Of a DNA stretch of 64,000 nucleotides, positions 21,801-61,300 are shown one piece after another. This DNA comes from Bugulina stolonifera (Eukaryota; Bryozoa; Gymnolaemata; Cheilostomatida; Bugulidae): NCBI GenBank assembly GCA_935421135.1, contig OW285189.1, positions 4,175,072 through 4,239,071 on the forward strand, given 5' to 3'. A model generated the notes under the pieces. That model searched no databases. It worked only from the letters and a program-made list of their open reading frames with translations, and had not been told where the DNA came from. A program made the position numbers and the translations under genes. The first letter of the stretch is position 1; each line of letters begins with the position of its first letter.

Positions 21801-24800
21801 TTTACTATCATGTGGTCAATCCTAAATATGTTTAGGTCACGTACATGTATGCACCAACATAAAGCTAACCTCTTCGGTTTAAGCAATCAGACAACAAGAA
21901 GTAAACTGTTTGGAAGCATCCAAGTATTTGTGACCATCAGACTTGTGCTTAGTAGTCAAATATTTAAGTTAAGTAAGAGCAAATCTTGGTCCAAGCCACA
22001 AGTAAACTTGATTTAGATTTGCCAACTAGCTGACTTGACTTGATTTAGACTGGTGCATCAATGTGACTTGACTTGGAAATCTGAATGACTTGTGACCTAG
22101 ACTTGGGGTCCACCAAGTCAATGTGATGAATAAAATTTTTGCACACTTTGTAACCAACATAGAAAACAGGTCTCAATTGTTTACCCATTCACCATTTTTG
22201 CTTTGTCAGAGCTGCCAGCACCACTCAGAGAACATCAGGGTTAGGTATGAGGGTATACAACACAGGTCACATAATGTATGTGCTTGAGTCTATTTAGATT
22301 CGTCATAAGAACTAGTTTAGAATTGCACAGCATATACAATACCACATGGCCAGACTAGACCATAGTGCCAATATTTGGAAGACCCAAAATATTTTGGAGT
22401 TGTCTCCCATTTGACTTGCATTTCTACTTGACTTGACCAGAGGCTTGCATTGCACACTGACTTGACTTGACCTGAAACAGCACTGACTAGACTTCAACTT
22501 GACTTGCCTCAAAAACTTTAGAAATGACTTGACATGTTGACTTGAAGTCCGACTTGGACCCAGCTCTGAGTAAGAATTTCTATTCCTAATTAACAACTAG
22601 AGAGACCAACTTGTCATCATTTAGTCAGTATGCTAACAGTGACCTCTGTACCATATGCTGTATGTTTAGGCCAACAAGTACAAGGTAGACTGGGCCCACA
22701 GGGTCTGCTAACACAGACACATCATAATTATGTACCAATATAGAACTAACCTTTTTGGCTTCAGCAATCAGACTAAAAAATAAACCTGGGTGGTGGCCTC
22801 AAAGTATTTGTGACCAAAATAATGGTTTATTGAATTAAAACCAAGCTGAAATATCCATAACATGGGCCTCAGCTTTCAGTCAGACATGTGTAAAACAGCT
22901 GCTACTGCTATAAGCATGATATGGAACAAACTTGGCACTTTGGTTTTCTCCTATCCTCCTTCTTAAGTGGGCCAAGTAGAAAAACTCCCTATTTCATGTA
23001 CATCTCACTTACATGTATTTTCTTTACATTTGTAGCTCTTGTCACGTGTTCTTCAGAACAACTTCATCAAAAGTCGGATGTAAACAGCTGGGTGTGATCA
23101 GCAGATGTTCTCCAGACTACAGAGGAGATCAACATATTTCTGACCAGTGTGAGTTTGGAAAGACTGCCAGGATCAGAACTCTTGGTGAACAGTGGTACAA
23201 GAACATCTACTGTGCTAGTTGTAACGGAATAACAAATATGAGTGCACTCACCTGCGAACCTGTTTACGGTAGGAGTCTACTTTTGTCCTGACAGTACATG
23301 TACATTTCTACCAACATTGTTCAAAGCAATAATCATTTAGAATAGACACACATGTAAGTTGTTTTTGTGTATAATGGTAAGATTTTTGTGAAACTACACC
23401 AACATAATGCATATATATGTGAGTAACTGCCTTCGACATAGTCTTGCTTAGTTTTATGCAACACTCCTCTGACATATACGTACTTAACTTTAAATTCTTT
23501 AAACAATATTTTAGTTGCAGTAGGACTTAGCAGAAACATTATCATACTGATTCATCCATTTGGGAGGAGCTGTTCCAAAACTGAGTTCTTTGGTCGGGTG
23601 GAGGATGGCTCCTGTGATTCGTTATCTGCGGCATTCAGCAGCTGTGCTGATGGTGAAATCTATAGTTGGACCAATCAGACGTGTCGAAGTATTTGCCCTG
23701 CTCCACTACAGTTTATAAAAGGGAAATGTCGGGCTGTAGATCAATTGCTATCACAAACAGGAAACACCACCGGTCTCTCCAGTAACTGTTCATATATTCC
23801 AAGGGATGACTACCAACAGCTACAAACTGGTGGAGGTTTATCATACAGAACTGACAGTATTCAGTTAGACGTATGGAATACATCTACCAGCTACTGTACC
23901 AGATGTAAATGGGTAGAATATGAACAGAGTGATGTAACAATAGAAGGTAGCCTTAGATCTCTAACTACACCAGAAGGAACTAAGTATAGCAGTAGATTAT
24001 ACATAGTAACGAACCAGTCTAAAGTGTTGGTATGTGGTGACCCAAATGCTACAAACACCACAGACACAAAAGGACTACTAGGAAAGATTTGCATTGGAGT
24101 AGAGGAGGGATCAGTGTCAATCACATTGATGTCTATATCCACGGTCGGCCTAGTGATCATGATAATAGTATACAGTATTCTACCAAATCTACACAATGTA
24201 CCTGGATACATCGTACTTAGTCAGGTAGGTGTGCACAACTCCTTAGTTTGTGTAATGTTATATATAATTAATGTAGCAGCTAAGCTAATAGCAGAATATA
24301 AAATATGTTTCGTTATTCATTTTAATTTACTGATGACCTGAGTAGTATAGTCAGTGCACTTCTATACAGACACGCACTCGTTGACCCCTGTTTTCAGCCA
24401 ATCACAAGCCGGTATTTCCGATTTCAACCAATCACAGAGGAGCACAAAAATTTTGCACACGACCTTGCCAAGGTCACCCCAAAATCCCCCCTTCTGATTG
24501 GTCGAAAAAACATTTGCACACTTGACCTCAAACCCGGCCACGACCCCTCCCCTCCTTCCCACCCTCCTCCCCTCCCCTCCCCCCACTCCTCCCTCCTCCC
24601 CCGCCACCGCCCTCGTCCCGTCCGCACCACCACCACCGCCACCGCCACCGCCGCCGCCACCACCGCCGCCGCCACCACCGCCGCCGCCACCGCCGCTGCC
24701 ACCGCCGCCACCACCACCGCCGCCATCACCGCCGCCATCACCGTCATCACCGCCACCCTTCCTCCACCCCCGCCCACCCTCCCCCGCAACCCCCACTCAC

Positions 24801-26496
24801 CCGAACGACCGATCGTTTGAGGCGGTCAAACCGCGTCCGCCTACGTTGCGTGCGGCGCCGATCGTACACGTGGAGGCGACGCCAGTGCCCCGTATCCACC
24901 GGGCCAAGCGACTAGGCCGCGGCCCGCCGCTCCTCCTGCGCCTCACTCGAAAAGCTTGTGATCTAAACGAGCGAATTCCGCTGCACTTCGCTATAGCTCT
25001 CATTAGCGATAAGAAGAAGTACTACAGAAGGCTTGGTTTATGATGTGCATTGCATTATTAATAAAGAAACGTGTAAAGTCTTGGCTATAAATATACTAAT
25101 GGGAAGAAGGGTTGGTTCTATGATATACATTGTATTGACAATAAAGAAACATGTGCATGTGTTAAGTCAGCATATATAATACATTAAATAAACTTTTCAC
25201 AATGGTGACAATAGAATGGATGAAAGGTTGTGTGCATGTCTTAAGCCAGCATTATGTAGTACATTAGATAAACTTTTCACAATAGTAGCAATAGAATAAA
25301 TAAAAGATTGTGTACACATGTTAAAACACAATTGAAAGAATAAAAGACACATATTTAAAGGAGTATGTCATAGCTATTATTAGCAAGAAAGTCTGTGTGC
25401 ATGTGTTAAGACAGCATATATTATACATTAGATAAACTTTTCACAATAGTAGCAATAGAATAAATAAAAGTTTGTGTGCATGTGTTAAGTCAGCATTATG
25501 TAATACATTAAATAAACTTTTCACAATAGTAGCAATAGAATAAATAAAAGATTGAGTGCATGTGTTAAGTCAGCATTATGTAATACATTAAATACACTTT
25601 TTACAATACTAGCAATAGAATGAATAAAAAAACTACATATGTAAAGGAGTATGTCATAGCTATTGTTAGCAAGAAAAGTCTGTGTGCATGTGTTAAGACA
25701 GCATATATAATACATTATATAAACTTTTCACAATATTAGCAATAGAATAAATAAAAGCTCATGTGCATGTGTTAAGTCAGCATTATGTAATTCATTAAAT
25801 AAACTTTTCACAATAGTAGCAATAGAATAAATAAAGATTGTGTACACATGTTAAAATATCATTATAATATAATTTAAACACAACTGAAAGGATAAAAGAC
25901 ACATATGGAAAGGAGTACGTCATAACTATTATAGCAAGAAACAGCTATGTGCATGTGTTAAGTCAGCACATATAATACATTAAATAAACTTTTTACAATA
26001 GTAGCAATAGAATGTATAAAAGGATGTGTATAAGTGTTAGAATACCATTATATAATAATTTAAAAAATAATTTTAAAAAAATCTTCACTGATTCGCTATC
26101 ACATAAAAGTAAATGCAGAGGGAATGAGACACTACAGAGAGAGAGTGGGAGAAAGAGAGTGGAAGAAAAAAGAAAAAAAAAACTAAAGAAAAGATGATTA
26201 GAGCTTTTCTTCACTGACTCGAAGGTAAGCTTCAGCTTGTGCTATTACCTCTCTGTGATACCCATTCTTCTTGAGATGAAAAATGGCAGAGCGGTAATAC
26301 TCAACTGCTCCAGAAAAAAAGATGGGGGAGTCTGCTTCGATCAACTAGTTCACTGACAGTCTCCTCTTCTATGGGGGTAATAGTGGTGGGGGTATTAAGA
26401 TTGAGTTCAGAAAAACAAGAAGTAGATTGCAAGCTAAGTAGCTCTCTTTCAAAAGAAAGAGAGGGTGAAGCTAAAGAAAAGGAAGAAGTGGTAGCA

Positions 26497-26527
<31 letters not shown>

Positions 26528-29500
26528 AAATAGTAATAAAAGTAGGTATTGAAAGACTAGTAATTGTATTATTAGATCTTTCAAGAGAAAAAGAGGGTGA
26601 ATCTAAGAAAAAGAGTGGAGCAGGTGAAGAGGTGGGAGTAGAAGTAGGTATCGAAACAGTGGTAACTGTATCATCAGATCTTTCAGGAGAATGAGAGGGC
26701 GAATGTGAAGAAAAGAGTGGAGGAAAAGAAGCAGTAGAAGGAGTAGTAGTAATGATAGTAGTAATAGTAGTAGTTGTAGGAGAAGAAGTAGAGGTGGTAA
26801 TGTCTCCATTAGTAAGAGAGTTACTGATGGAAGAAGCATCTGAATTAAAATGATGGTGAGAAGGGAGAGGAAATTGTGAAGAGCACACCCCAGACTTTAA
26901 AGAGAATGGAGTAGTACACATCCCCTTAAAGAAGGGAGGGTATACTACCCCACCAACAGTTGTTGGAGTGTATGCGGGGATGAGTATTTTGGAAGGTGGA
27001 GAGTGACCAGTGACCCTTTGCAAAAAGGATATGGTCTTTTTTAATGAGTAGATATCAGTTAGAAAGCGAGTGTTGAATGAGATGTGGCGGTGACAGGGCT
27101 TTCCATCAATACGATGATTAGATGGAAAGTTGTAGTGTCTATTCATCCCCTCGTCATCTACTGTTATGTGATAGAAAAAACAGATTCTGAGCAAAAAATG
27201 TTGTTGAATATGGACACCTCGTCGGTGCCCAACATTCTTATTACATAAAAAGCAGGGGTCATCCGATTCAAATGGCTTTGCTAGTGACATCTCCAGTCTT
27301 CTTTTTGCCTCATCACTAACAAAGACATAGAATCTTAGACCCCCCCCCCCTTACTTATCGGCTTTGTTCTGAGTCCTAAAAAAAGAAAAAAAAAACAAGA
27401 ATAAGTGAGAGAGGACATAGGACTTACTTGTAAATCAAAAAGATTCTAAATAGACAAATAGATAGTAGATCATTCTTACCTAGCTCTATCCCATCTACTC
27501 CCCCACATTCCTCAAATAATGCAATTTCTTCTTCACCTAGTTCTGTTTCTTTTTCATTCTATAATGTAAATAAAATGTGCAGAGACTAATTAACAAACTA
27601 CATTAACATAGTCTTTTGTAATATATGGTTTTTGAGGAATTTGATGAAAAAACTAGCACTCTAAGTACTAAGCAAGTCTACTAAAGTCTGTCTATTTTCT
27701 CACATAAAGAGAAATATACCATTAACATGAGAAAACCAGTTGTCATTTATGTTTTATTTTTTCACATAAGAAAAGAAAAAAGTGTCTTATTGATAGAAAT
27801 AATACATAAGAAAGAAAGTGCAATACTTATAATAAAAATATAACTAATCTTTAACATCTTAGACATGGTAAGAGACTTATAGAATTAGAGAAAATCATAC
27901 TATGGCTAATTAACATCTGGTTTTAAAAAGGAAGTAGTCTCTTTTGACAATATAGACATGGTAAGAGGCTTATAGTATAAAAAAGTACATTATCATACTA
28001 TGTGTAACTAACATGTACTTCTGAAGAAATGTCAGTAATCTCCTTTGACATCTTAGAAATAATGTGATGAGGTGTAGAAACCCAACACCATAGTGGATGG
28101 AAGTTGTAGTGCATGTGTGAACAAATAAGATAATAGACTAACCATTTCTGGAGATGGGATTCTTTTTCTTGAAATTCTTCTGTCCTCTGAATCGTATGTT
28201 ATCATGTACTTAGTGCCTTTTTTTGTTGTTTTAATTTTTCTTATATATTTTTTTCTTAGATGCTTAGATGTAGAAGCCTGTAAGTATATGTAGAGTAATA
28301 AACATATACCAAAGCATAAGTCAAGTAGACAAAACTACTAATGCAACATAGTTACTAAACAAAGAGAATAAGAATGAATAAAAATATATAAGAAACATGA
28401 GCATAGTGGTAGTGTACAAGTCAAGTATACAAAAATACTAATCCCTATAGTTATTGAGCAAGAAAATAAGAATACTGATAACAACTACTTTTAGAATGAA
28501 TAGAATAGGCAAGTAAAATAACAAGTAATAATATATACTAAAGCCTTAGCTGTGTGGATAAAACCACCAACTCACCATAGTCACTGGGGAATAGAAACAA
28601 GAATAGATAAACAGAACATGTATAAGCAAGGGCGTTTCTAGCTATTGTCGCAGGAGTCGTGCGACCCCCTTTGCACTAACCAAAAGTCAAAACGGATTAT
28701 GTACTACATTGTATTTAGCCTTGCTGGTTGTCAGGGCAACCAGCAATAGCCTGTGTGCACCGTCTAAAATGGAAAGTTGTGTCACCCACGATACCTATTT
28801 CATAGAGTTTAGTATACCAAATCTTTGCTAACTTGATCCTTCTCTCAATCGTTGTGAGTAGCATAGAAAAAACTACCATTCTTCGTTTGATTGAGAGTTT
28901 TATGGCAAATTTGCTGCCACTACTAATCTACTTGACTTTTTGATGTGAGAATGCAACATTTTGTGTCCACATGATATATAACTGACTAATCTACTTGACT
29001 TTTTGAAGTGAGAATGCAACATTTTGTGTCCACATGATATATAACTGACTAGGGACTTTTGTTGTAGTAGAAGTAGTCTAATACTACTGATAATAAAATA
29101 ATAATATAATCAATAAGAATAATTAATAATTATAATTTTAATTTGATAAATATTAATAATAATTGATAATATAAATATCAATTACTGAATTAGTAATAAT
29201 TATTTATAATATAATTAGTAATTTTTGTTGTTTTTTATCACTTTAATTACACAATTTGCTTATTGGTTTACTAGCATAAGCTGTACAACAACTAAAATAA
29301 TACAATATGAATAATTATTAATTTAATATTATTATTAATAATAATACTAAATTAAAATTAATAAATATTCATATTGTTGTATTGTATTATTTTAGTTGTT
29401 GTACAGCTTATGCTAGTAAACCAATAAGCCAATTGTGTAATTAAAGCGATAAAAACAACAAAAATTACTAATTATAGTAAAATTAAAAATAGGTATTTGT

Positions 29501-32500
29501 TTTATTGAATTGTTTAATGATGTTAATAATAATAGTAATAATAAATTTTAAAAACAACTTTTATTATAATAATAATAATAATATATAAGAAGTAAACTAA
29601 AACTACTACTAACTGTCACTGTGGTGACCCTTATGTATATTCATCACAACCTAAGAACTCAGGGAGAAGATAAGTATTGATGTTAGCCTTAGATTAACGG
29701 CTGACTTTATGCGCTTCTCTATAGTAACGTAATAAAGTTGTGCTATGATATAATCTACTAGTACTCAGGCAGAGAGAAAATCTGAAGATAAAAAGTAAAT
29801 ATAAATAATATTGGCTTCTATTATAGATAACATACTAGCATTTTTATAATTTTTTCATTGATTTGATGGTAAGTGGATGTAGACTAACCTTAGGGATAAT
29901 CCTTATCTGTTATTAAAGCCTTCAAGGCTTGTTTAGTGAAGGGTAGGTGGTATCAAAGGTAGGGTAAGTGGTTTCGTATGGGTAGGGTAGAGTAGGCAGT
30001 TTTGTGGGTAGGGTAGGGGTAGGTGGTTTCGCTACACCCCTAAGCGGGTGTAACGTGCGATGCCTGGATAATCTGTTTGTAACCACTTGTCTTGTTCTCT
30101 TTAGGTTTTGAATATGATGTAGACCTATTTTATATTTGAATACTTACTAGTCTTTAAAAGGTCTGGATATATTTACATGTATATCTTGATAATACTCGGA
30201 TAATCTTTTTGTAACCGCTTGTCTTGCTCTCTTTAGGTTTTGAATATGATATAGACCTATCTCATATTTGAATACTCAATAGTCTGGTCTGGATATATTT
30301 GCATTTATATCTTAATTTCTCGTAATTAGTAAAGAACACATTTGGTGTATTCCAACTATAAGTTGTGTTAAACATGGTTTTGTATTGCAATAAATACCAG
30401 CCTACATAATATACGCCTACTGCAGTCGTAGAACTTTTATAGTTGTAATCAGTGCTTGGAAGTATTGTGATGGTACAGGACATTTGTATACGACCCCAAC
30501 TCCCGGACGAAGCTCCACCGCACCCTAAGTGCCTAGTAGTTGTTACAGCGCTACTCACCTGACACTAACATTCTCACAATTAGTGCTCGTATACTTACCT
30601 TTAACTGCATTGCATGTTCAAAGTACTTAATTACCGTCTATATACATGTCTCCATGTGTTTATGCTCATTCCTTATTCATGTATCTTACTATATGTTGTT
30701 GTACATAGTCACATGAATGTTACTAAGTCCTTTTTTATGCCTTTTATACCCATGTACAGAGGCCCGACCTCTCAGAATCCTTTGATATTCATTTTGTACA
30801 TGAATTGGACCATTATAAGCAACTTTTGTAGAACCCGACCTATTTTGGGTCGGCCGTCGGGCTTCCGGCGGCCATCTTGTTGCGCAACTTCCGGACGACC
30901 ACACGTCGTCTTTTCCCGACGTCACGTCGGCCGGAAGTCCTTATACTATATAAAGGGCACTGTTTTACTGTTCATTGTCTCAGTCTACACTTGGCTTTCA
31001 ATAAAGACACATCTACACTTGATACAGGGACTTTCTCTTCCTTTTACTAGGTCATTCGCTTTGCGAACCGCCTACTAGGTTGAACTACTCTCTTTCACTG
31101 TATAGTCTGAAGGTCGGACTTGAGATCAGATGGGTCGTCTTTGGTAGTATTTGAGCTACTGAGACCGCTCGATCTTTCATGTAATGCGAAGTCCTATTAC
31201 CACTCATAGGCACTTCATTTCTGGGTCGATAGTCGTCCAAGGACGACCGCACCAAATCACAGAAACCATTACATTGGTGGCAGCGGTGGGATTCTAAGGT
31301 CGTACTCTTACGATACGAAGCGAAGGAAGGTGACCTCGGCCTCGGGTGACCGACCGACCTCATTCTTCAATACTTCTACGGCGATTTAGGACTCGGACCC
31401 GGGAACCTTGGATACGAGAAGGTGACAAACGCTAAAGTGCACCCATAATTCTCGTGGTTCCGCTGGATGTAGCCCGACCTACGCCGGATCTTCAATCAAA
31501 GACCGACCTCGGATCCAGAATAGATTGACGGTACTCAGTACGACCATCAGGCCGACCCGGCCTAACAAACTACGGTAGTTAACTAACTACCCGACACCCT
31601 ACAGACATCAAACCGAGGACGACACGTCCCCTTCACCAAAGAGGCTCCATCTATACTCAGAATGGCTAGCGATATAGACAGGCTAGTAGAGGTAATCGGA
31701 CAGTACATAGAAGTAGCTCGACCTCAGCCGCCTCAACCCTCTTTCAAGACACCACAGTTCGACGGACAAGGAGACGTCGAGTTCTTTATAGAACAGTTCC
31801 TGACCATAGCCGAGGCAAACGACTGGAGCCCGGCAGCCATGTACCTTCACCTAAGAGAGGCCCTCAAGGGACCGGCACAAGAATGTGACCGACCCGGCAC
31901 CTCAGAAGGGATCTTCGAAGCTCTACGCGCCCGATACGGGTTAACTGATAAAGAAGCTAGACTCCAGCTCATACAGCTGCGGAAAGATCCCGGCATGTCA
32001 TTACAAGAACATGCCACCTTAGTCAAGAAACTTGTACATGTGGCTTTCCAGGAACTACCCGAAGCGCACCGCCGGGTATTGGCTGTGGAAAACTTCAGTA
32101 ACTCTCTTGAGGACGGACACCTACAGAGACACCTCTTGGCAATAAACCCCAGAGACGTGGACTCGGCCGTCCGAGCCGGAAATGACTTCCTGCTCGTCAA
32201 GGGACCTTCCCGTGGAAGTAAAGCACACCAAATCAGGGCAGTCACAGAACCCGAGCCGGAGACACTCCAAATAAAGACAGTGGACTCCGACCTGACCTGG
32301 ATCAACGACCTGAAAGAGGCCATCCAGACACTCAGCCAAGAAGTCAGACGACTTCGAGGACTACTAGACGCCCCCAGAGCGCCAGGACCTCGGAACAGAC
32401 CCTCCTGGCAGACCAGCAAAAAGCCTGGTCCCCCTCCTCAACGGACCAATGGGAACACTCCCCCCACATATCCTGAGCCGCCAGTACCCGAGTCGGGAAA

Positions 32501-35500
32501 AGGCTCCGGCCCGAGACAGTAGAGGCTGGCACTCGGGCCCTACAAGTTCCTCGCACCTCTCACCTTTCCATCTCGGAAGACCGTCCCAAGTATCCGGTCG
32601 GCAAGGCCGACCCCCCTTCTAAAACAGTGACTCAAGTGACGTATGTAAAGCCGCATGTACCTAGCCTGTACATACAAGGACGACTATGTAGCCAAGATGT
32701 AACCCTACTCTTGGACACGGGCTGTACGACCAACCTAATATCACCCCGCATCCTGAAGAAGCTGCAGAGACCCGACCTAGAGGTCCTACCAGTAAGTCAG
32801 CCATATGGCAAGATGGCCGACGGCTCGACTCTCAGGTTCGAGGGAATGGTAAGGCTACCTATGGTAGTCGGTCGTACCTTTAGCCAAGAACTGTTCCTCA
32901 TCGGCTCCATACCAGAAGATGGCGTCCTAGGGATGCCCTACCTGACTAAACACAAGTGCTCTGTAAACTGCCATACCGCTAAGGTATACACCAGCCGAGA
33001 TCAATGGCCGTGTGTCAATAGAACGGGAAGCCCTTATACATTGAGGACGATGCCTGAGATGAAGCCTAGTACGCCTCCGCCCGACGTCGATGACTCATGC
33101 CGACGTCAAGGACACCCCACCAGAGGATCCAGGGCCGAGGGAGGAACGGATAATTCAGTACCTAGTACACCTGCGCCCGACGTTGATGATCAATGCCGAC
33201 GTCAAGGACACCCCCACAGAGGATCCAGGGCCGAGGGAGGAACGGGAAGCTCATCACTTAGTACACCTGCGCCCGACGTTGATGATCAATGCCGACGTCA
33301 AGGACACCCCCACAGAGGATCCAGGGCCGAGGGAGGAAAAGGATCATTACCGCCCAGTACAACTCCGCATGGCGTCGAAGTACAATGCCGACGTCCTGGC
33401 CACCCGATAGGGGGGCTAGAAGCCGAGGGAGGAACAGCGAAGAAAAAGAGGCAAGTAGAGGACCAGGGCCGACAGGCTAAAAAGCCGCGCATCCAGGAGC
33501 GTAGACAAGGCGCAAACCGCCTCGAGGAAGGTGCTGTCGACTATTTCCAGCACCCGATATTCCCGCCGCCCGACTGGGGCAGAGGTTCAAAAGGTAGACC
33601 CTCCTACGTCCGGATGCTTACGCCCTACACTAGGGAACACAGACCCCTATCATACAGGAGGAAGGCCCGGTGGAAGCGAGGCCGACCCCCAGAGGTTATA
33701 CTAGAAAGAATTCATCACAAATGGGCTGCCCAGACGACTACCTGTCGTAGGCCGACACGGCCAGGCCCGTGTTTACTCCCCAATTCAATAGACAGATCCG
33801 GTGACCCAGACAACCTTGAGATCAAAATAGATCTAACAACCGGGGTCAGACAAGTGCACTTCCGCCGCAACGTAGCCCTACTACATGGTGAGAAGCCAGC
33901 TGTTGCAGACATAACGTCGCACACCAGAAGGAGAACCAGGGCAGCCCCCACACCTATAAAAGGCCAGGATCCAGATGGATCCCTCAGTACCTTCACCACC
34001 ACCACTCAGTCAACACCTAGTCGGACAACAGAGCACTCTATTCGAGACTCCTCAACAAGGACGGTGCCCTCCCTAGTCGGCCTACTCATGGACTTGCCAG
34101 GTGAGCCAATAGACCTGGACGAGGTACTGTTGCTTTTGGACGACGACGAATTATATGCTGATCTCGGGAACCCCTCGAGGGATGAGGTCGTGCCAGTCGG
34201 GTCGGGTCATACTGAAGTATCTTCGGTACTTCGGGACGATACCGTCCTAACCGACTCGGACATGCACCACCTCCCCTCCGGGACGACCTCGGACATGCAT
34301 ATGTACTCTAATGACATTGTACACCATGTGACTGAGTCGGGTGACGAAGACGACTCGGCCTACGCAAACATTGATAATCTAAATGATCAACCTCTTGTAT
34401 CTACACTTTCTCTTATAGAGACCTCTCCAGAGACGCCTATGCCGCAGTCTCAACTTTGCTGGATCTCTCCACGGACCAGTAGTGATATACGTCGGACAGC
34501 CCGATGTAAAGGAAGGAACTCCTATTGTCGACTATGTAAGCTAGAAGGGACGGAGAACACCATCAAGGCTCACACACGCCAACACTTTACCCAGTTCTTC
34601 TGTTCCTGTGGAGTCAGCGCCCGTGATGCAGAGACTGTCTATCGGCACCAAAGCCAGACAGGCCACGGAGCCATCCAGTATGAAGTGGATTCCCACATGT
34701 TCCAGCTTTTCCTCAAGGCGATGAAGCTCGACAAGAGGGTCGCTTACCCCTCATGTATCCCAGCCGACGTAGGACCAAAACCTTTCACTATACCAGCTCC
34801 TCCAGAAGCTGAAGCCAGAGCAGCAGTGGTGCGACTGACACCTCCTCCTGCCCCAAAGAAAACAAGTAAAAGAAAGTCGCCCTGGGAGCGACTAGGCAGT
34901 CCAAAGCGACCACAGACTCGTATGGACCCTCCAGCCTTGGACCACAGAGGGACTGATACTTACGACATACCCAAACGTCGGCCCCGGCCGCCTAAGGCTA
35001 GAACCGGATCAGACAAGGCCGTCCTATTGTCGACCAGCCCTCCAGATACTAAAAACACAAAGAAATCTCTTGAGTCCCGCACCCCTACAGCAGAATTCCA
35101 GAAGGAAAGAGAACGATTGTGTGCCACTTTAAACAATCGTCTCGGACGCCTCAGGCACCAACTGCACATACTCCAGCAGAGACTTCTTCACTCACATGTT
35201 AGAGACCGGCTTACTATAGTCCAGCAGACGGAAGCCGTACAGGACGAAATATCCCTCCACCAACGGCTCACGGAGCAGATCCTTAGACATACTCGAAGAG
35301 ATAGTGCCAAGGATCGGGGGGCTATGTGATGGTACAGGACATTTGTATACGACCCCAACTCCCGGACGAAGCTCCACCGCACCCTAAGTGCCTAGTAGTT
35401 GTTACAGCGCTACTCACCTGACACTAACATTCTCACAATTAGTGCTCGTATACTTACCTTTAACTGCATTGCATGTTCAAAGTACTTAATTACCGTCTAT

Positions 35501-40708: not shown

Positions 40709-40798
<90 letters not shown>

Positions 40799-41831
40799 TG
40801 GTGGTGGTGCAGACGGGACGAGGGCGGTGGCGGGGGAAGAGGGAGGAGTGGGGGGAGGGGAGGGGAGGAGGGTGGGAAAGAGGGCGGGGAGGGGTCGTGG
40901 CCGGGTTTGAGGTCAAGTGTGCAAATGTTTTTTCGACCAATCAGAAGGGGGGATTTTGGGGTGACCTTGGCAAGGTCGTGTGCAAAATTTTTGTGCTCTT
41001 CTGTGATTGGTTGAAATCGGAAATACCGGCTTGTGATTGGCTGAAAACAGGGGTCAACGAGTGCGTGTCTGTATAGAAGTGCACTGACTATACTACTGAC
41101 CTGTGTCTGTATAAGACAGCGTTGTGGCCATGGTGCTTGAATTGGCTGCAGTACACTCTCTTAAAGAGAATCATTTTCCATCAACATCATAAAAATCTTA
41201 AGATATACGAGTAAATAGTATATTCCTTTAAAAAAATTCATATCAACCTTGCTCAAGCCTGGTGAAGATCCAAAGCAGGCGTCAGTAAAGACAGAACAAT
41301 TAGAAGTCACACAGTACTATATAGAATTATTTTTTAAGATAAGTCTTCACCCCTTCACTCTCATTCAATGAGTGATTGTGTGCAATGTAAGTGAAGTAAT
41401 TAACCTACATGTAGCTAATACATGTATATACAGGTGGATCTATACCTTTTCAGTTTGAGCAGAAGAAAGAATTAATTTATACAATTATGTATGTTGATTT
41501 ACTTATTTCTATGTACATGTAGGTGGTGCCGCTACTGCTTAGTTACATATTCTTTCTCCTCCGAGATGCAGCAGACGAGGATACAACAGGATGTTACATC
41601 GTATCAGTTCTAGTTCATTACTTCTTTCTTAGCAGCAACGTCTGGTCGTTTCTCTATGCAGTAGAAATCACTATAACTGTGACATCAGTCTATGCAATCA
41701 ACCAGAAGTCCAAGAAAAAGTTTTTAAGGTTGGATGTCACTTATAAAACTGTGTGGGCTGATTGGTCGATTGTATATGGAAGTAGTAGCAGTAGTGGTGG
41801 TGGTGGTGGTGGTGGCGGCGGCGGTGGCGGT

Positions 41832-41862
<31 letters not shown>

Positions 41863-48560: not shown

Positions 48561-48591
48561 CGCATTCCCTCTCTTCTCATTACAGATAAGA

Positions 48592-51500
48592 ATGATGATG
48601 AATATGCGTGTACTAATGCTAGTCTGTGTATACCTTCCCATTACCATCTCTACAGACATGTCATTATCACAGCTCTGGATTGACTTTGCCTCTGTACCTG
48701 GTGGATTAAAGAGATTCTCTGAATGTCTGGGATATCATACTTGCTATCTAACAGAACAGACTAATGAGGCATTTACTCAGATGCAAGACCTACTCAACCA
48801 AACTGGGGATATTCCAACCAAAATTCTAGGATACGAAGGTAACAACAATGACCAATAACCAAATACTACGCAGGTTACCATCATTGATTTCTTGAAATAG
48901 AAGTAAATTGTGGAAGGTTGTAATGATATACAATTCTAGACAGACACGCACTCATTGACCCCTGTTTTCAACCAATCACAAGCCGGTATTTCCGATTTCA
49001 ACCAATCACAGAAGAGCACAAAAATTTTGCACACGACCTTGCCAAGGTCACCCCAAAATCCCCCCTTCTGATTGGTCGAAAAAACATTTGCACACTTGAC
49101 CCCGAACCCGGCCACGACCCCTTCCCTCCCTCCTTCCCGCCCTCCTCCCCTCCCCCTCCCCCACCTCCCACTCCTCCCCCACTCCCCGCCACCGCCCTCG
49201 TCCCGTCCGCGCCACCGCCGTCGCCGCCGCCGCCACCGCCGCCCTCACCGCCGCCACCGCCGCCGCCACCACCGCCCTCACCACCGCCGCCACCGCCGCC
49301 GCCACCACCGCCCTCACCACCGCCGCCGCCACCGCCGCCACCACCGCCACCGCCGCCACCCGCCGCCACCGCCGCCACCACCACCACCGCCGCCGCCGCC
49401 ACCACCGCCGCCGCCATCACCGTCATCACCGCCACCCCTCCTCCACCGCCGCCCACCCTCCCCCCGCAACCCCCACTCACCCGAACGACCGATCGTTTGA
49501 GGCGGTCAAGCCGCGTCCGCCCACGTTGCGTGCGGCGCCGACCGTACACGTGGAGGCGACGCCGGTGCCCCGTATCCACCAGGCCAAGCGACTAGGCAGC
49601 GGCCCGCCGCTTCTCCTGCGCCTCCCCACTCGGAAAGCTTGTGATCTAAGCGAGCGAATTCGGCTGCGCTTCGCCTATAGCTCTCATCAGCGATAAGAAG
49701 AAGTACTACGGAAGGCTTGGTTTATGATGTGCATTGCATTGTTAATAAAGAAATGTGTAAAGTCTTGGCTATAAATACACTGATGGGAAGAAGGGTTGGT
49801 TCTATGATATACATTGTATTGACAATAAAGAAACGTGTGCATGTGTTAAGTCAGCATATATAATACATTAAATAAACTTTCCACAATGGTGACAATAGAA
49901 TGAATAAAAGATTGTGTACACGTGTTAAAACACAATTGAAAGAATAAAAGACACATATTTAAAAGAGTATGTCATATCTATTATTAGCAAGAAAGTCTGT
50001 GTGCATGTGTTAAGACAGTGTATATTATACATTAGATAAACTTTTCACAATAGTAGCAATAGAATAAATAAAAGGTTGTGTGCATGTGTTAAGTCAGCAT
50101 TATGTAATATATTAAATAAACGTTTCACAATAGTAGCAATAGAATAAATAAAAGAGGAGTTTAGGTACTTATTACTCATCTTCATCAGAAGTCGTAGGAG
50201 CTATAATGTTTACGACTTCGGTCTCAGCATACTCTAATTGATATGCTCCAGCTCCAAACTCTTGACACAGTCTTACCTACAAGATGATTTTAGTTTTTTA
50301 CTCAGACGAATATCACTCAAGGTGGACAAAGCAAGAAATCTATACTTCTTTATGTTGTTGGTCCCTTACCATATCTGCTGATTTGTAGAGGTGAGCTAGT
50401 TGTTGAGGGGTTTCACTTTTGTAGTTACGAACTTCAGAATCAGCTCCCAATCTTAGACATGTATGTGGACATTCGTAGTCTTCATTCTCTATGGCAATGT
50501 GAGATGGGGCGTATCCATCTCCCATTCGCTATAATATCAAACAAGAGAATAGAATTAAACTCCCCATCTAACTTATCAATTCGATCTACTCTACTTTTAT
50601 TCCACTGTAATGTATTCACTTACCCTCATATCTAAGTCAGCCCGAGTATTTTTTTTTTAGTACCTTTAGTGCCTCTCTATGCTTGCTGCTATGCGCTGTT
50701 TCAACAATGAGGTGGACTACACTCCTTCCATCATGATTGTAGCTCTGTACATTGTCTTGGGGAAGTGATTTGTAAGGAACTCTGAAGTATGGATGCTTTA
50801 CTTCTGCTCTGGTCAAACTTGTGGTTAGAGCATGAATAACCTTAGCTCTACCCAGACGTGCAGCAATGTGAAGGGGGGTGTCACCTTCCAAATAAACATT
50901 AGCAATATAGATAAGTACCGAATTGTTACAAGTTTTGCAACACTTTATTTTTTAACAAGCAATGCATGCAAACATTGGTGCTATAAAACACTAACCCCAA
51001 GCATCGGCTATTGCTCCATCCGCTCCCCTTGTGATGATGAGGCGAATTAGTGAATCCGAACAATAAGACTGTACAGTTAGGTGAAGTAACGTCTGCCGAT
51101 TCGCATTCTTTGTATTCAGTTGTTTGTGACTCCTCGCAACAAATACCGCGAGTGCAACGGCTCTCTCATCTCTATCTCGGGCTGCTTCTAGTACCTCACT
51201 ACATCATTTAGCATGATATTTGTTTTTCACATAGTTGAGAGGTAGTTATATGGGAAATTTGTCTATCATATTTTATTTTGATCATAAAAGACAATACAAA
51301 ACAAAAAAAAAAAAATAGTTGGAAGTATGTATAACTTACAACTCTTCATCCTTTCCATCTTGCTCCCAAAAGATAGAACGAATTTCTTCTAGTAACTGTG
51401 TGCTAAGCTTATTACGAATATCGGTTAAAGGATCCCATTTCTGCCAGTCTAGAGGTAAGCTTTTTTGGAGAAAGAGCTCAGACATCCCCTCAAATAAGTC

Positions 51501-54500
51501 TTTATTCTCATACTTGCTTTGTTCTGTACACCTTTCCACTGTTACCTTCATCAGCTCTTGGTTTATAGGAGTCATTAGCTTGTTGCTATACTCGCTTGAT
51601 CCATATCCACTTTCCATGCTATTTGTGTGCTAACCTTCTTTAATTTCTATTAAGAACAGACTGGAGCTAAAAAGAGTTAACTAAACTACTGTTTCCACCT
51701 CTCTTTATATAGTGAATAAAAAGATACAAATAAAGCTGATTGGCTAACAGCATATACATTGGAGCGCATTGGAAACACATCAGAGTGCATCGAATCACAT
51801 CGGGAAAGATCGAAAACACATAGGGAAACATCGAAACACATCGGGAAAGGTCGAAAACACATCGGGGGAGGTCGAAAACACATCGGGACACATCGAATCA
51901 CATCGGGGGAGGTCGAAAACACATCGGGACACATCGAATCACATCGGGGGAAGTCGAAAACACATCGGGACACATCGAATCACATCGGGGGAGGTCGAAA
52001 ACACATCGGGTCACATCGAATCACATCGGGGGAGGTCGAAAACACATCGAATCACATCGGGGGAGGTCGAAAACACATCGGGGAGGTCGAAAACACATCG
52101 GGTCACATCGAATCACATCGGGGGAGGTCGAAAACACATCGGGGGAGGTCGAAAACACATCGGGACACATCGAATCACATCGGGGGAGGTCGAAAACACA
52201 TCGGGTCACATCGAATCACATCGGGGGAGGTCGAAAACACATCGAATCACATCGGGGGAGGTCGAAAACACATCGGGGGAGGTCGAAAACACATCGAATC
52301 ACATCGGGGGAGGTCGAAAACACATCGAATCACATCGGGGGAGGTCGAAAACACATCGGGGGAGGTCGAAAACACATCGGGACACATCGAATCACATCGG
52401 GGGAGGTCGAAAACACATCGAATCACATCGGGGGAGGTCGAAAACACATCGAATCACATCGGGGGAGGTCGAAAACACAACGAATCACATCGGGGGAGGT
52501 CGAAAACACATCGGGACACATCGAATCACATCGGGGGAGGTCAAAAACACATCGGGTTACATCGGGGAAGGTCGAAAACACATCGAGACACATCGAATCA
52601 CATCGGGGGAGGTCGAAAACACATCGGGGGAGGTCGAAAACACATCGGGACACATCGAATCACATCGGGGGAGGTCGAAAACACATCGAATCACATCGGG
52701 GGAGGTCGAAAACACATCGAATCACATCGGGGGAGGTCGAAAACACAACGAATCACATCTGGGGAGGTCGAAAACACATCGGGACACATCGAATCACATC
52801 GGGGGAGGTCAAAAACACATCGGGTTACATCGGGGAAGGTCGAAAACACATCGAGACACATCGAATCACATCGGGGGAGGTCGAAAACACATCGGGGGAG
52901 ATAAAAAACACATCGGGTTACATCGGGTTACATCGGGTTACATCGGGTTACATCGGGTTACATCGGGTCACATCGGGGAAGGTCAAAAACACATTGGGAC
53001 ACATCGAATCACATCGGGGGAGGTCGAAAACACATCGAGACACATCGAATCACATCGGGGGAGGTCGAAAACACATCGGGGGAGGTCGAAAACACATCGG
53101 GTTACATCGGGTTACATCGGGTTACATCGGGTTACATCGGGTTACATCGAATCACATCGGGATGCAATAAATCAGACTAAAAAAAGGCAAATCACTTCTG
53201 ATTGGACAGAGATTTCCATAAAAGCAAGCGTGAGAGAGGATTTTTATCATTACCACTCAACCACCTAGTAAAGACTTGCAACTCTGTGGATATTTACCAA
53301 TTTCTCTGAATAAACATCACTCAACAATTAATATGGTGAGTAAACTTATTTTAATATGTATTTTAGTATGAATTTACTCATTTGAGTTAACATTGGGACT
53401 AATTATATTTTAGTAGTGATATAATACTCCCTTGGTATGACCAGAGCTTAGAAACTTTGTAAGCTTATGTATTAAACTGTTTTGATTCTCAACATGAGAG
53501 CAAGTATGTAGAGATCTGATCTGTCTATACTACAATTTGTGTGACCAGAGCTTAGAAGCTTTATATGTTGTGAGATTTATTTTCAATATGAGTAGTTATA
53601 CCACTAGTAGTGTAATAAGTATCAAAACTGTTTATTACCACTTGTACTGGCTATACTAGTACATCCTAGCTATTTTAATATGTATTTTAATATGAACTTA
53701 CTCATTTGAGTTAACATTGGGGCTAATTATATTTTAGTAGTGGTATAATTCTCCTTTGGTATGTCCAGGGCTTAAAAACGTTGTAAGCTTATATATTAAA
53801 CTGTTTTGATTCTCAACATGAGAGCATGTGTGTAGAGATCTGCTCTGTCTATACTACAATCAGTGTGACCAGAGCTTAGAAACTTTATTATAAGTGGTTA
53901 TACCACTGTAGTGTTTCTTTCTTTAGTAACTATGTTGCATTAGTAGTTCCATCTACTTGACTCATGCTTTGGTATATGTTTATTACTCTACATATACTTG
54001 CAGGCTTCTACATCTAAATATCAAAGAAAGAAATATATAAGAAAAATTAAAACATCAAAAAAAGGTATGAAGTATATGATTACGTACGATTCGGAAGACA
54101 GAAGACGAATCTCGAGGAAAAGAATCCCATCTCCAGAAATGGTTAGTCTATTATCTTATTTGTTCACACATGCATTACACCTCCAATCCACTATGGTGTT
54201 GGGTTTCTAAGATGTCAAAGGAGATTACTGACATTTCTTCAGAAGTACATGTTAGTTACACATAATCAGGGTTGGGAACTTTGATCTACTTTTGCATTCG
54301 ATTTCCGATTTTCGATTATGCTGACTAAACCAAGGAATACAAGCATTCGATTGTTACTTTACTAAATCAATGATTGTACTTCAATCGATTTTACAATCGA
54401 TGATGATTTTAGAAAATGCACATGTATATAGGTATAATTTTTGTAAAAATGGAGAAATTTATTGTCTTTACTAATTCTGTCTATTACTTTAAAATGTTAT

Positions 54501-57500
54501 AACAACTGTGCCTAATATTACCAGTTTTATTTGCATTTTCTCATAGTCTAGAGTTATCTCCTCTACCTTTATGTTTCTTTTTAGCCTCCAAATATTTATA
54601 TGCACTGCAAATCATAGCCAGAAATTCCAGGCTATTATTTCTTATTTGGTGCTAGCCACTCACATTTTATCCTAGCTTGCAAATAAAAGCTATTATTTTG
54701 TTATTAAATAAAACAGCTCATCATCATTTTTTTATTAAAAAGATAAGAACTAAGCTACAAGGCTTTTTATTTATTCCCTGTACTAAACACTAGCAGATTA
54801 ATTAGCAGCTTAGTGACAATCGAATGCAGCTGTAACCCTATAAAACCAACGAATACATGCATTTCGATGGCTTTGTTGGAAACCAATGATTAGGTGGAAT
54901 CGATGGTGAATAGACCAAAGAAAATCACCATCGAATATCGAATGCTATTGGCGATTCCCAACCCTGCACATAATGATGATGTACTTTTTTATACTATAAG
55001 CCTCTTACCATGTCTAGAATGTCAAAAGAGACTACTTCCTTTTTAAAACCAGATGTTAATTAGCCATAGTATGATTTTCTCTAATTCTATAAGTCTCTTA
55101 CCATGTCTAAGATGTTAAAGATTAGTGATATTTTTATTATAAGTATTGCACTTTCTTTCTTATGTATTATTTTTATCAATAAGACACTTTTTTTTTCTTT
55201 TCTTATGTGAAAAAATATAACATAAATTACAACTGGTTTTCTTATGTTAATGATGTATTTCTCTTTATGTGAGTAAATAGACAGGCTTTAGTAGACTTGC
55301 TTAGTACTTAGAGTGCTAGTTTTTTCATCAAATTCCTCAAAAATCATATATTACAAATAACTATGTTAATGTAGTTTGTTAATTAGTCTCTGCACATTTT
55401 ATTTACATTATAGAATGAAAAAGAAACAGAACTAGGGGAAGAAGAAATTGCGTTATTTGAAGAATGTGGGGGAGTAGATGGGTTCGAGATAGGTAAGAAT
55501 GATCTAGTATCTATTTGTATATTTAGAATCTTTTTTTTTTTTTTTTTTTTTTGATTTACAAGTAAGTCATATGTTCTCTCTCACTTATTCTTGTTATTTT
55601 CTTTCTTTTTTAGGACTCAGAGCAAAGCCGATATGTAAGGGGGGTCTAAGATTCTATGTCTTTGTTAGTGATGAGACAAAAAGAAGACTGGAGATGTCAC
55701 TAACAAAGCCATTTGAATCGGACGACCCCTGCTTTTTATGCAATAAGAATGTTGGGCACCGACGAGGTGTCCACATTCAACAACATTTTTTGCTCCGAAT
55801 CTGTTTTTGCTATCACATAACAGTAGATGATGAGGGGATGAATAGACACTACAACTTTCCATCTAATCATCATATTGATGGAAAGCCCTGTCACCGACAC
55901 ATCTCATTCAACACACGCTTTCTAACCGATATCTATTCATTAAAAAAGACCATATCCTTTTTGCAAAGGGTCACTGGTCACTCTCCACCTTCCAAAATAC
56001 TCATCCCCGCATACACTCCAACAACTGTTGGTGGGGTAGTATACCCTCCCTTCTTTAAGGGGATGTCTACTACTCCATTCTCTTTAAAGTCTGGGGTGTG
56101 CTCTTCACAATTTCCTCTCCCTTCTCACCATCATTTTGATTCAGATGCTTCTTCCATCAGTAACTCTCTTACTAATGGAGACATTACCATCTCTACTTCT
56201 TCTCTTACAACTACTACTATTACTACTACTCCTTCTACTACTTCTTTTCCTCCACTCTTTTCTTCACATTCACCCTCTCATTCTCCTGAAAGATCTGTAA
56301 AGTCTGGGGTGTGCTCTTCACAATTTCCTCTCCCTTCTCACCATCATTTTGATTCAGATGCTTCTTCCATCAGTAACTCTCTTACTAATGGAGACATTAC
56401 CACCTCTACTTCTTCTCTTACAACTACTACTATTACTACTACCATTACTACCACTCCTTCTACTGCTTCTTTTCCCCCACTCTTTTCTTCACATTCACCC
56501 TCTCATTCTCCTGAAAGATCTGATGATACAGTTACCACTGTTTCGATACCTACTTCTACTCCCACCTCTTCACCTGCTCCACTCTTTTTCTTAGATTCAC
56601 CCTCTTTTTCTCTTGGAAGATCTAATAATACAATTACTAGTCTTTCAATACCTACTTTTATTACTACTTCTACTACTACCACTTCTTCCTTTTCTTTAGC
56701 TTCACCCTCTCTTTCTTTTGGAAGAGAGCTACTTAGCTCGCAATCTCCTTCTTGTTCGTCTGAACTCAATCTTAATACCCCCACCACTATTATCCCCATA
56801 GAAGAGGAGACTGTCAGTGAACTAGTTGATCGAAGCAGACTCCCCCCATCTTTTTTCTCTGGAGCAGTTGAGTATTACCGCTCTGCCATTTTTCTTCTCA
56901 AGAAGAATGGGTATCACAGAGAGGTAATAGCACAAGCTGAAGCTTACCTTCGAGTCAGTGAAGAAAAGCTCTAATCATCTTTCTTTAGTTTTTTTCTTTT
57001 TTCTCCCACTCTCTTTCTCCCACTCTCTCTCTGTAGTGTCTCATTCCCTCTGCATTTACTTTTATGTGATAGCAAATCAGTGAGGATTTTTTTTAAATTA
57101 TTTTTTTTAAATTATTATATAATGGTATTCTAACACTTATACACATCCTTTTATACATTCTATTGCTACTATTGTAAAAAGTTTATTTAATGTATTATAT
57201 GTGCTGACTTAACACATGCACACAGCTGTCTCTTGCTATAATAGCTATGACATACTCCTTTACATATGTGTCTTTTATTCTTTCAATTGTGTTTAAATCA
57301 TATTATAATGATATTTCAACATGTGTACACAATCTTTATTTATTCTATTGCTACTATTGTGAAAAGTTTATTTAATGTATTATATATGCTGCCCTTAACA
57401 CATGTACACAGACTTTTCTTGCTAACAATAGCTATGACATACTCCTTTACATATGTAGCTTTTTTATTCATTCTATTGCCAGTGTTGTAAAAAGTGTATT

Positions 57501-58313
57501 TAATGTATTACATAATGCTGACTTAACACATACACTCAATCTTTTATTTATTCTATTGCTACTATTGTGAAAAGTTTATTTAATATATTACATAATGCTG
57601 ACTTAACACATGCACACAACCTTTTATTTATTCTATTGCTACTATTGTGAAAAGTTTATCTAATGTATAATATACACTGTCGTAACACATGCACACAGAC
57701 TTCCTTGCTAATAACAGATATGACATACTCTTTTAAATATGTGTCTTTTATTCTTTCAATTGTGTTTTAACACGTGTACACAATCTTTTATTCATTCTAT
57801 TGTCACCATTGCGAAAAGTTATTTAATGTATTATATATGCTGACTTAACACATGCACACGGTTCTTTGTTGTCAATACAATGTATATCATAGAAACAACC
57901 CTTCTTCCCATCAGTATATTTATAGCCAAGACCTTACACATTTCTTTATTAACAATGCAATGCACATCATAAACCAAGCCTTCCGTAGTACTTCTTCTTA
58001 TCGCTGAAACCAAGCCTTCCGTAGTACTTCTTCTTATCGCTGATGAGAGCTATAGGCGAAGCGCAGCCGAATTCGCTCGCTTAGATCACAAGCTTTCCGA
58101 GTGGGGAGGCGCAGGAGAAGCGGCGGGCCGCTGCCTAGTCGCTTGGCCCGGTGGATACGGGGCACCGGCGTCGCCTCCACGTGTACGGTCGGCGCCGCAC
58201 GCAACGTGGGCGGACGCGGCTTGACCGCCTCAAACGATCGGTCGTTCGGGTGAGTGGGGGTTGCGGAGGGAGGGTGGGCGGCGGTGGAGGAGGGGTGGCG
58301 GTGATGACGGTGA

Positions 58314-58359
<46 letters not shown>

Positions 58360-61300
58360 AGTGGTGGTGGCGGCGGTGGCGGCGGTGGCGGCGGTGGCGG
58401 CGGTGGCGGCGGTGGCGGCGGTGGCGGTGGTGGCGGCGGTGGCGGCGGCGGTGGTGAGGGCGGTGGTGGCGGCGGCGGTGGCGGCGGTGAGGGCGGCGGT
58501 GGCGGCGGCGGCGACGGCGGTGGCGCGGACGGGACGAGGGCGGTGGCGGGGAGTGGGGGAGGAGTGGGAGGTGGGGAGGGGGAGGGGAGGAGGGCGGGAA
58601 GGAGGGAGGGAAGGGGTCGTGGCCGGGTTCGGGGTCAAGTGTGCAAATGTTTTTTCGACCAATCAGAAGGGGGGATTTTGGGGTGACCTTGGCAAGGTCG
58701 TGTGCAAAATTTTTGTGCTCTTCTGTGATTGGTTGAAATCGGAAATACCGGCTTGTGATTGGTTGAAAACAGGGGTCAATGAGTGCGTGTCTGTCTAGAA
58801 GTGCACTGACTATACTACTAATATGATGCAGGATACCACTGCGGGTGTGACACGACCACCTGTGGTCGTCATGGCAACTGTTGCTCCGATGTCAAACGAG
58901 GAGTGAGTTACCAGCCTGATCTGGTGCCACCTGCATGTGTCTTACAGAAAAAACAACCAGAAACTACTGATGACTTCTTCTACACAAAAATGGAGTGCCC
59001 GTCCAACTTTACCGACCCTACTGTAAAAGCATTGTGTGAAATACCTATTGATTGGAAAACCTCTAAACCAGGTATGGAAATAGGTCAATGGTCCTGGTGT
59101 GAGTCTTACCTAGCATATGCATCTTTTCTATGAACTTGTGCAAAGTATTAGCCATTGACTTTTAATATAAGTATTTTTCGTTCTACTATTTGAACATAGG
59201 AGCAATACCATGTAGAAGAATTTCGAACTGTAAATTAACAGGCTAATACTGGTAACCAACTGGTAAATAATATTCTTGGCTAATTCTCAATATGAGTACA
59301 CAAATCCTGTTACCATGGATACTAAAAACAGTGTGTGATTGACAGGCTCAAAGTGATGTAAAGCACAAAATGGTAGTGCTATACCTACATGTATGTAGAA
59401 TAAAATTATCTGCTTTGTAAAGTCTGAAATGGTGACTGTTGGTTCTAGATTTAGAGTACTGGTTTGTGACTTCTAACAAGACCCTGGATGCATATCGTAA
59501 CATCTATTGTGCTTTGTGTAATGGAGAGTCAACAGAAAATTTAGAGTTCTGGGAGGTGGAATTATCTTGCGATAGAGACCCAGAAGAGGTGACAGGTGGT
59601 CAAACAGATAGTTTTGCCACTGAGTACAGGTACGTAAGCAACAGAATATGCTCTTCCTTGACTTGGCAATAATAATAATAATGGATATGATATGATTGGT
59701 CAATGCTAGCAACCAAGTTATTATTTTATACTCGTTGCCAATCATTTTGTGCATTTCCTCATCTTTCTCTGGAACACCCTCATTTGATTGGTCATTGGCA
59801 AATCTTCTTGTTTATTCCTGATGTGCCACTCTTCCTCATCTAGTACGTGTTAAATGATACTAGACGACACTAGACAATCGTCTTCCAAAACCCAATATAA
59901 ATACAATGTGCATACTGGGTAATTAAACTGACTTCTTGTGCACTGGGTAAAGTCACCCTTTAGCAACAAAGAGGTTACAAATATATTGAAAAAGACCTTC
60001 CTAACCTCACGCTTTACTCATAATATTCATTATTTCTGCATCTTTTGTTCCATTGACTATGTTTTAGCTCTTGTCAAGTATCCTTTAACATACCACTGCC
60101 AACATCTCGCTGTGGAACTCCAGATGTGATCACCAGTTGTCCTCCACACTACAGAGGAGATCAACATATCTCTGACCAATGTGAGTTTGGAGAGACTGCC
60201 AGGATCAGAACTCTTAGTAACCAGTGGTACAAGAACATCTACTGTGCTAGTTGTAACGAAATAACAGATCTGAGTACACTCACCTGCGAACCTTCCATAC
60301 GTATGATTCTACACCTGCTATAAAAATATCTCTGAATGAAAATCTGATACACTTTTTTTTATGTCTGTCGGAGTCATTGATCCATGATAGATTCCGCATG
60401 TCATATTATTTCTTCATATACTTTTTGCAGTGAATACAACAATCGAATCCAGCATTAGAATACTAATCCAGCCATTTGGAAACCGTTGTCTAAAAACTTC
60501 ATTTTTCGGAGAACTCTCTGATGGCTCCTGTGCTAAGCTATCTGCTGAGTTCAGCAGCTGTGCTGATGGTGAAATTTATAGTTGGACCAATCAGACGTGT
60601 CGAAGCATTTGCCCCTCTCCACTACAGTTTATAAAGGGGAAATGTCAGGTTGTAGAACAGTCAACATCGCAAACAGGAAATTCTACCGATCTCTCCACAA
60701 ACTGTTCATATATTCCAAGGAATGAATACCAACAGCTACAGACTGGTGGGGGTTTATCATACAGAACTGATAGTATTCAGTTAAACGTATGGAATACATC
60801 TACCAGCTACTGTACCAGATGTAAATGGGTAGAATATGAACAGATTGATGTAACAATAGAAGATAGCCTTAGATCTCTAACTACACCAGATAAAACTAAG
60901 TATAGCAGTAGACTATACATCATAACTAATATGTCTAAAGTGTTGGTATGTGGTGACCCAAATGCTACACACTCCACAGCCACGGAAGGACTGCTAGGAA
61001 AGATTTGTACCAGAGTAGAAGAAGGATCAGTGTCAATCACATTGATGTCTATATCTATAGTCTGTCTAGTGATCATGATAATAGTATACAGTATTCTACC
61101 AAATCTGCACAATGTACCTGGATACATCGTACTTAGTCAGGTAGGGGCACACAACTCCTAAACTTGTACTAAAGCAGGACACTTCTTTATAATTCATTAT
61201 AAGGAAAACAAAATGAAATTTTGTTGACGAACTTTTGAACTTAGCATAAACAACCTAGTGCAACAAATAGTCCTGCTACAAATGATTACACATTTGATTT

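Follow-up and report, generated by a model that had tools for sequence, protein, structure and literature searches.

Two copies of a large mobile element carrying a divergent pair of spliced genes, A and B, lie in opposite orientation in a 64,000-nucleotide stretch of the genome of the bryozoan Bugulina stolonifera (contig OW285189.1, positions 4,175,072 to 4,239,071 of the forward strand; hereafter the window). Polintons, also called Mavericks, are described as self-synthesising, with the genes for polymerase, integrase and capsid all on one element. The A/B elements are probably the capsid-less and integrase-less partners of a recently active Polinton family without DNA polymerase B (PolB), and they would be moved in trans by relatives with the same ends. 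We file the system as a Polinton-like variant with a capsid-less partner class because PolB was not found in it, the protease match is weak, the minor capsid protein is named from gene order, and the A/B elements show only the end features of Polintons. Here the capsid and integrase genes and an apparently conserved spliced gene pair are found on separate elements with the same ends, in hundreds of copies in one genome.

The two copies and their terminal inverted repeats (TIRs) are delimited as follows.

24341..41097, forward strand: A/B element, copy 1, with a nested long terminal repeat (LTR) element inside its 16,757 bp
24341..24936, forward strand: left TIR of copy 1, with the tip AGTAGTATAGTCAGTGCACTT at 24341-24361
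40483..41097, reverse strand: right TIR of copy 1
48931..58819, reverse strand: A/B element, copy 2, without its left tip
48931..49984, forward strand: left TIR of copy 2, tip bases 1-16 absent, inner end approximate
57711..58819, reverse strand: right TIR of copy 2, with the full tip at 58799-58819; inner end approximate

As the initial annotation described, both copies contain, in opposite orientation, the TIRs, the divergent genes A and B, a minisatellite between them and subterminal repeats. Both ends of copy 1 start with AGTAGTATAGTCAGTGCACTTCTA, and copy 2 has one such end. The TIRs of copy 1 are ~0.6 kb long with an identity of 94%, and those of copy 2 are at least ~1.05 kb long. The perfect 6-bp target duplication that had been reported for one copy is GACCTG, which flanks copy 1 on either side; none is visible at copy 2 because the first 16 tip bases are gone from its left end. 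Copy 1 is longer than copy 2 mainly because of the nested LTR element. Each copy has one damaged gene, gene A in copy 1 and gene B in copy 2. The joined flanks of copy 1 and of copy 2 match different positions of tandem host paralogues, and the copies are therefore two insertions and no duplicated block. No empty site for copy 1 was obtained at base precision; the paralogues diverge near the insertion point.

The tips are abundant in the genome (235 Mb in 27 contigs). Allowing at most one mismatch, the 21-bp tip is found 363 times in forward and 371 times in reverse orientation, against 0 for a reversed control, and with up to three mismatches the counts are 778 and 793 (control 3 and 3). The ends read AGTAGT and the TIRs measure ~0.6-1.2 kb. 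Perfect 6-bp duplications, each with different flanks, surround 11/11 distinct further elements, a sample that comes from 12 listed pairs with one element present twice (three of A/B type, seven of capsid type and one deletion form). The tip count is far beyond chance, and the family is probably recently active.

The capsid type has integrase, ATPase and capsid genes, for which the A/B elements gave no match. Seven elements of this class were read, of which one came as an unbroken 10,000-base stretch and the other six in two pieces each. All seven contain the open reading frame (ORF) ORF451, ORF145, an ATPase, ORF195, an integrase, a penton-like ORF, a capsid protein of 461 amino acids and a protease-like ORF. 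ORF134 is present in 6/7 and a pVI-like ORF in 5/7, and ORF114, which is small and on the opposite strand, is whole in three and split in one. In Pfam searches with one copy of each protein, the integrase matched rve (PF00665, 4.3e-10) and a chromodomain (PF00385, 1.1e-6) and the ATPase matched PF04665 (Pox_A32, 1.9e-6); the capsid, penton-like (256-amino-acid ORF) and pVI-like proteins gave no Pfam match. No relative of ORF451 was found. For the capsid protein, 40 relatives were found at E <= 0.01, and a structural model from an alignment of 31 of them reached a predicted local distance difference test score (pLDDT) of 85 and a predicted template modelling score (pTM) of 0.86. The model matches the capsid proteins of PBCV-1 (3.8e-17), Sputnik (1.1e-15) and mavirus (3.1e-14) at template modelling (TM) scores of ~0.5-0.6; in the viral library a protein from a bracovirus record ranks top by E-value (4.9e-25, TM 0.36). 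As modelled, the capsid protein has a double-jelly-roll fold. Viral contigs held neither a relative of the capsid protein nor a tip. Other Polinton-type capsid genes make up 29 of the 96 listed capsid matches and are 33-46% identical to the query, compared with 30-31% for the capsid class.

In this class the ratios of nonsynonymous to synonymous polymorphism (pN/pS) are 0.18 for the capsid protein, 0.10 for the integrase, 0.14 for the ATPase, 0.14 for the penton-like gene and 0.35 for ORF451, with 2/7 integrase rows and 1/7 penton-like rows dropped for coverage below 95% where piece ends cut them. None of the best 150 of 449 penton-like matches contains a stop. The initial annotation had called for autonomous relatives with the same tips that encode PolB or an rve integrase; the capsid class provides the integrase, and PolB was found in neither the A/B nor the capsid class. 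The rve/chromodomain integrase of this sister class would serve for the insertion of both, giving the 6-bp duplications. The sister class also has the packaging ATPase and the capsid protein, and the A/B elements would likewise use the latter in trans.

The two gene sets occupy one set of ends. From the first 100 of the 734 tips (contig C1, and C2 to 9.7 Mb), 49 tip pairs were obtained: 23 are A/B elements, 23 belong to the capsid class, 3 remain, and 0 have listed matches of both sets. The 23 pairs with gene A or B matches have a median length of 9,514 bp, and none of them (0/23) holds a listed capsid match. The penton-like gene marks 19 pairs, with a median of 10,732 bp; further capsid-class pairs were assigned by reading (L067 and L072) or by a capsid match (C1:20177232 and C1:24020277). 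Listed matches comprise 150 of 306 candidates for gene A, 150 of 368 for gene B, 150 of 449 for the penton-like gene and 96 of 268 for the capsid gene. The three remaining pairs measure 3.5, 6.9 and 8.6 kb; the shortest of them, L071 (3.46 kb), retains a relative of ORF114 and has the look of a deletion form.

In a maximum-likelihood tree built from 24 TIRs of 13 elements, the two classes are intermingled, with 7 label changes compared with a mean of 7.5 after shuffling; at least 4 of these changes are forced by supported branches. Over 710 columns, the TIR of the A/B element L009 shares 98.3% and 98.7% identity with two capsid-class TIRs; to the TIR of another A/B element, L063, it is 88.9% identical over a longer stretch of 1,227 columns. 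The classes share their ends and mix their TIRs, and exchange between their ends is the simplest reading.

Both classes also share an array design. The minisatellite that separates genes A and B is made up of repeated [CT]CGATG sites and forms two arrays in the window.

38021..38610, forward strand: array of copy 1, between genes A and B, 42 [CT]CGATG sites, 41/41 spacings in helical phase
51788..53160, reverse strand: array of copy 2, between genes B and A, 91 [CT]CGATG sites, 90/90 spacings in helical phase

Across 11 arrays (three A/B elements, seven capsid-class loci and the deletion form), 407/407 spacings between neighbouring sites equal 10-11, 20-21, 31 or 52 bp, though the spacers vary between arrays; of random integers from 6 to 70, ~22% would land on those values. 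The commoner strand was counted, and in the 5/11 arrays with sites on both strands the minority strand is left out. The phase is kept across arrays whose strongest periods are 41, 31 and 21 bp, and copies within an array are not independent of each other. The regular spacing suggests one protein that binds one face of the DNA helix. The arrays may serve as a binding platform for a single protein common to both classes, as an enhancer or as something resembling an origin.

Genes A and B have the following structures in the window.

38781..40215, forward strand: gene B of copy 1, 5 exons, 326 amino acids, ankyrin-repeat protein, intact
38781-39058, 39215-39417, 39528-39787, 39883-40041 and 40135-40215, forward strand: exons of gene B, copy 1
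50201..51617, reverse strand: gene B of copy 2, with a one-base insertion
26301..27350, reverse strand: open frame of gene A exon 4, copy 1, frame changed at both ends
53333..56974, forward strand: gene A of copy 2, exons 54004-54141, 55414-55492 and 55614-56974

Gene A of copy 2 has a putative start codon at 53333-53335, and its exons 2-4 are open. By eye, window 54261-54964 is an extra insert in an intron of this gene that is absent at that place in copy 1. The only domain recognised by Pfam in the A/B genes is the ankyrin repeat; an rve integrase and a packaging ATPase were not found in the A/B proteins. We call gene B only an ankyrin-repeat gene because its best 60 of 314 PDB matches, mostly ankyrins and designed ankyrins, include no protein named IkB, and the idea of an IkB mimic was dropped. 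Gene A had no relative in Pfam, PDB sequences, the protein database or viral contigs (best PDB match E 0.18). A single-sequence fold of gene A was uninformative (pLDDT 33), and we therefore claim no fold for this gene. In the genome itself, relics 47-79% identical to gene A lie at C1:13706319, C11:5922026 and C5:12615204.

Both genes look conserved at the sequence level. The five exons of gene B are in frame in 19/21 copies (20 loci and copy 2), the exceptions being L038, which lacks exon 5, and copy 2 with its one-base insertion. The pN/pS of gene B is 0.233 over exons 1, 2, 4 and 5 (12 distinct rows), which played no part in choosing the loci, and its introns diverge by 4.4% compared with 1.4% for exons. 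Exons 2-3 of gene A give 0.466 (15 distinct rows, loci without exon 2 left out), and a piece of exon 4, which had itself been used to choose the loci, gives 0.14. No stop interrupts 140 of the best 150 of 306 gene A candidates. The two genes look like more than passengers; they would be kept because they help the elements to spread, and gene A may act in replication or regulation. The suggestion of a non-autonomous Maverick relative is supported by the integrase, ATPase and capsid genes of same-tip elements, with two corrections: PolB was not found in those relatives either, and A and B, in a class that in the sample equals the capsid class in frequency, do not look like mere cargo.

PolB is present elsewhere in the genome. 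PF03175 gave 11 matches at ~10 loci, in frames of up to 1,415 amino acids (14/14 candidates scored), which is too few for either class when set against hundreds of elements. Five of the matches are on C1, inside no listed tip pair of the main or third-class type (the third class is described below); the one at C2:16262050 is inside no listed third-class pair and beyond the range of the main pair list. At C1:22080281 and C7:13185903 PolB has a capsid gene on the same strand at a distance of 5.5 and 9.6 kb (C1:22073506 and C7:13174978), and these capsid genes differ from those of the capsid class. More complete Polintons therefore seem to be present and could be helpers. No PolB having been found in either class, replication would use a polymerase from elsewhere; this could be that of another element, a host enzyme or one from the third class.

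The third class has a sister tip, AGTAGTATAGTCAGTGCAGAT, which has its first 18 bp in common with the main tip and occurs in 327 and 330 copies genome-wide (control 0). One copy is at L005:1-694 (contig C11), adjoining an A/B element. The class is uniform in size, with 27 of 43 listed pairs measuring 9,600-9,750 bp; one example of the class is C1:3755280-3764988. One of its TIRs has only the terminal 32-43 bases in common with other TIRs. On C1 and C2, none of the listed gene A, penton-like, PolB and capsid matches falls inside a listed third-class pair.

Several observations weigh against a PolB-less Polinton with partners moved in trans. Trans-mobilisation, packaging and any function of A and B are inferences. 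That no element carries both gene sets holds for the listed matches alone, and the 49 pairs were drawn from C1 and, on C2, from positions up to 9.7 Mb. Some tips have no partner, 2/100 of the main and 14/100 of the third-class type. A further 88 and 92 tips with 2-3 mismatches match neither tip type, and PolB elements with related tips may be among them. For each gene, conservation was measured on the 20 loci most similar to the query, which were picked for that similarity, and the copies descend from few masters. In the capsid class, the 195-amino-acid protease-like ORF matches PF00770 only weakly (E 0.14) and has a pN/pS of 0.72, and the minor capsid proteins, presumably penton-like and pVI-like, are so named from gene order. 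Some of its copies are broken: the penton-like frame is shortened in L057, the capsid gene has a stop in L058, insertions interrupt the capsid gene of L069, the integrase of L057 and L072 and the protease of L059, and ORF451 is altered in four copies.

The partner relationship can itself be understood in more than one way. The chances are about even that the A/B element is a satellite that hijacks the capsid class, with A and B helping the satellite alone, for example by acting on the host or the helper. An ankyrin repeat as the only recognised domain and ends common to both classes fit this view. The A/B elements are, however, as frequent as the helper in the 49-pair sample, and a hijacker would not need the same array design. 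It is less probable, though conceivable, that an obligate bipartite or tripartite Polinton has the A/B element as one of its genuine segments, with a putative replication or regulatory function needed by the capsid segment. This would agree with the 23 and 23 of 49 pairs without listed matches of both sets, the common TIR pool, the helical-phase arrays common to both, the conservation of A and B, and a size-uniform third class with the same first 18 bp. Against it, PolB was found in neither class, and equal numbers would fit a successful satellite too; the mixing of TIR labels does not tell satellite from segment. In its fullest form this proposal, which we regard as tentative, is a multi-part Polinton of at least two and perhaps three separately integrated segments of ~9.5-10.7 kb with common tips, namely capsid/integrase, A/B regulator and the third ~9.66-kb class, in which two segments exchange TIRs, one protein binds the arrays and the polymerase comes from elsewhere or from the third class.

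The initial annotation had also considered a new DNA transposon family with gene A in the mobility machinery. Gene A looks conserved and has no relatives that were found, in databases or viral contigs, which would suit a novel transposase, but this is very improbable: the same-tip rve class has the same 6-bp duplications and its own integrase with no listed gene A match. Segmental duplication or an assembly artefact, suggested by the position of both copies among tandem host paralogues, has a negligible chance, given different insertion points, hundreds of tips and 11/11 elements with perfect duplications in 11 different flanks; transposition, as first proposed, is upheld.

Other features of the window are the following. 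The nested element has identical 300-bp pieces at 30466 and 35325 and ORFs at 31587-32519 and 32477-35326.

30466..35940, forward strand: nested LTR retroelement in copy 1, end approximate

Its long ORF (950 amino acids) has a weak aspartyl protease match (E 0.0006), and no reverse transcriptase match was found in its two long ORFs. LTR-type pieces resembling it also occur in L071 and L063. To the right of copy 1, the host frame encodes a secretin-family receptor (PF00002, 2.4e-14), and within this frame window 41700-42100 is a long glycine/valine-coding repeat tract. In the TIR at window 24398-24501, two CCAAT boxes and one ATTGG lie within ~100 bp in a promoter-like arrangement. A long CCG/CCT-rich repeat tract of variable length is found at window 24541-24780 and in the other window TIRs. 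Scanning the window with Rfam (gathering threshold) and for tRNAs gave no matches.

Polintons are described by pPolB, an rve integrase, a protease, an ATPase and capsid proteins, and intact vertebrate Mavericks have TIRs and 6-bp duplications, with ends (AG)3 or (AGT)2 (excerpts of PMC8097293, PMC11071308). The motif (AGT)2 is given as the end motif of Polintons (excerpt of PMC8097293). The elements described here resemble Polintons and Mavericks, including adintoviruses, in their 6-bp duplications, (AGT)2 ends and long TIRs, and the capsid class also in its rve integrase with chromodomain, packaging ATPase and double-jelly-roll capsid protein as modelled (excerpts of PMC8097293, PMC11071308, PMC11071296). 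Unlike them, the capsid class measures 10.7 kb with no PolB found and the A/B class lacks the core genes; one set of ends serves two gene sets, which never turned up on the same element among the listed matches, and there are spliced genes and site arrays. Polinton-like viruses (PLVs), virophages and other relatives without pPolB likewise have a capsid set without pPolB (excerpts of PMC11071308, PMC11071296), whereas PLVs mostly lack an rve integrase and encode other replication proteins (excerpt of PMC11071308). No replication proteins of PLV type were recognised in the ORFs given to Pfam here. Non-autonomous DNA transposons are similar in having the same ends as an integrase-bearing element, and a short deletion form (L071) occurs here too. 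The A/B elements differ from them in being full-size, gene-conserving and as frequent in the sample as their presumed helper. In the Polinton literature, as represented by titles and abstract openings of mostly freely accessible papers, no such pair of capsid class and partner is described. Several DNA segments per agent are known in bidnaviruses, up to twelve (excerpt of PMC11071296), and in polydnaviruses (abstract opening of PMC2646287). In contrast to these multipartite animal DNA viruses, the present elements are known as integrated elements, and their ends and integrase are of Polinton type. They do resemble a multipartite virus-like element in their common ends, their separate gene sets (23 + 23 of 49 pairs) and the mixing of their TIRs. 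If the parts depend on each other, this system would show a DNA virus lineage becoming multipartite; if they do not, it amounts to a Polinton with an abundant satellite system.

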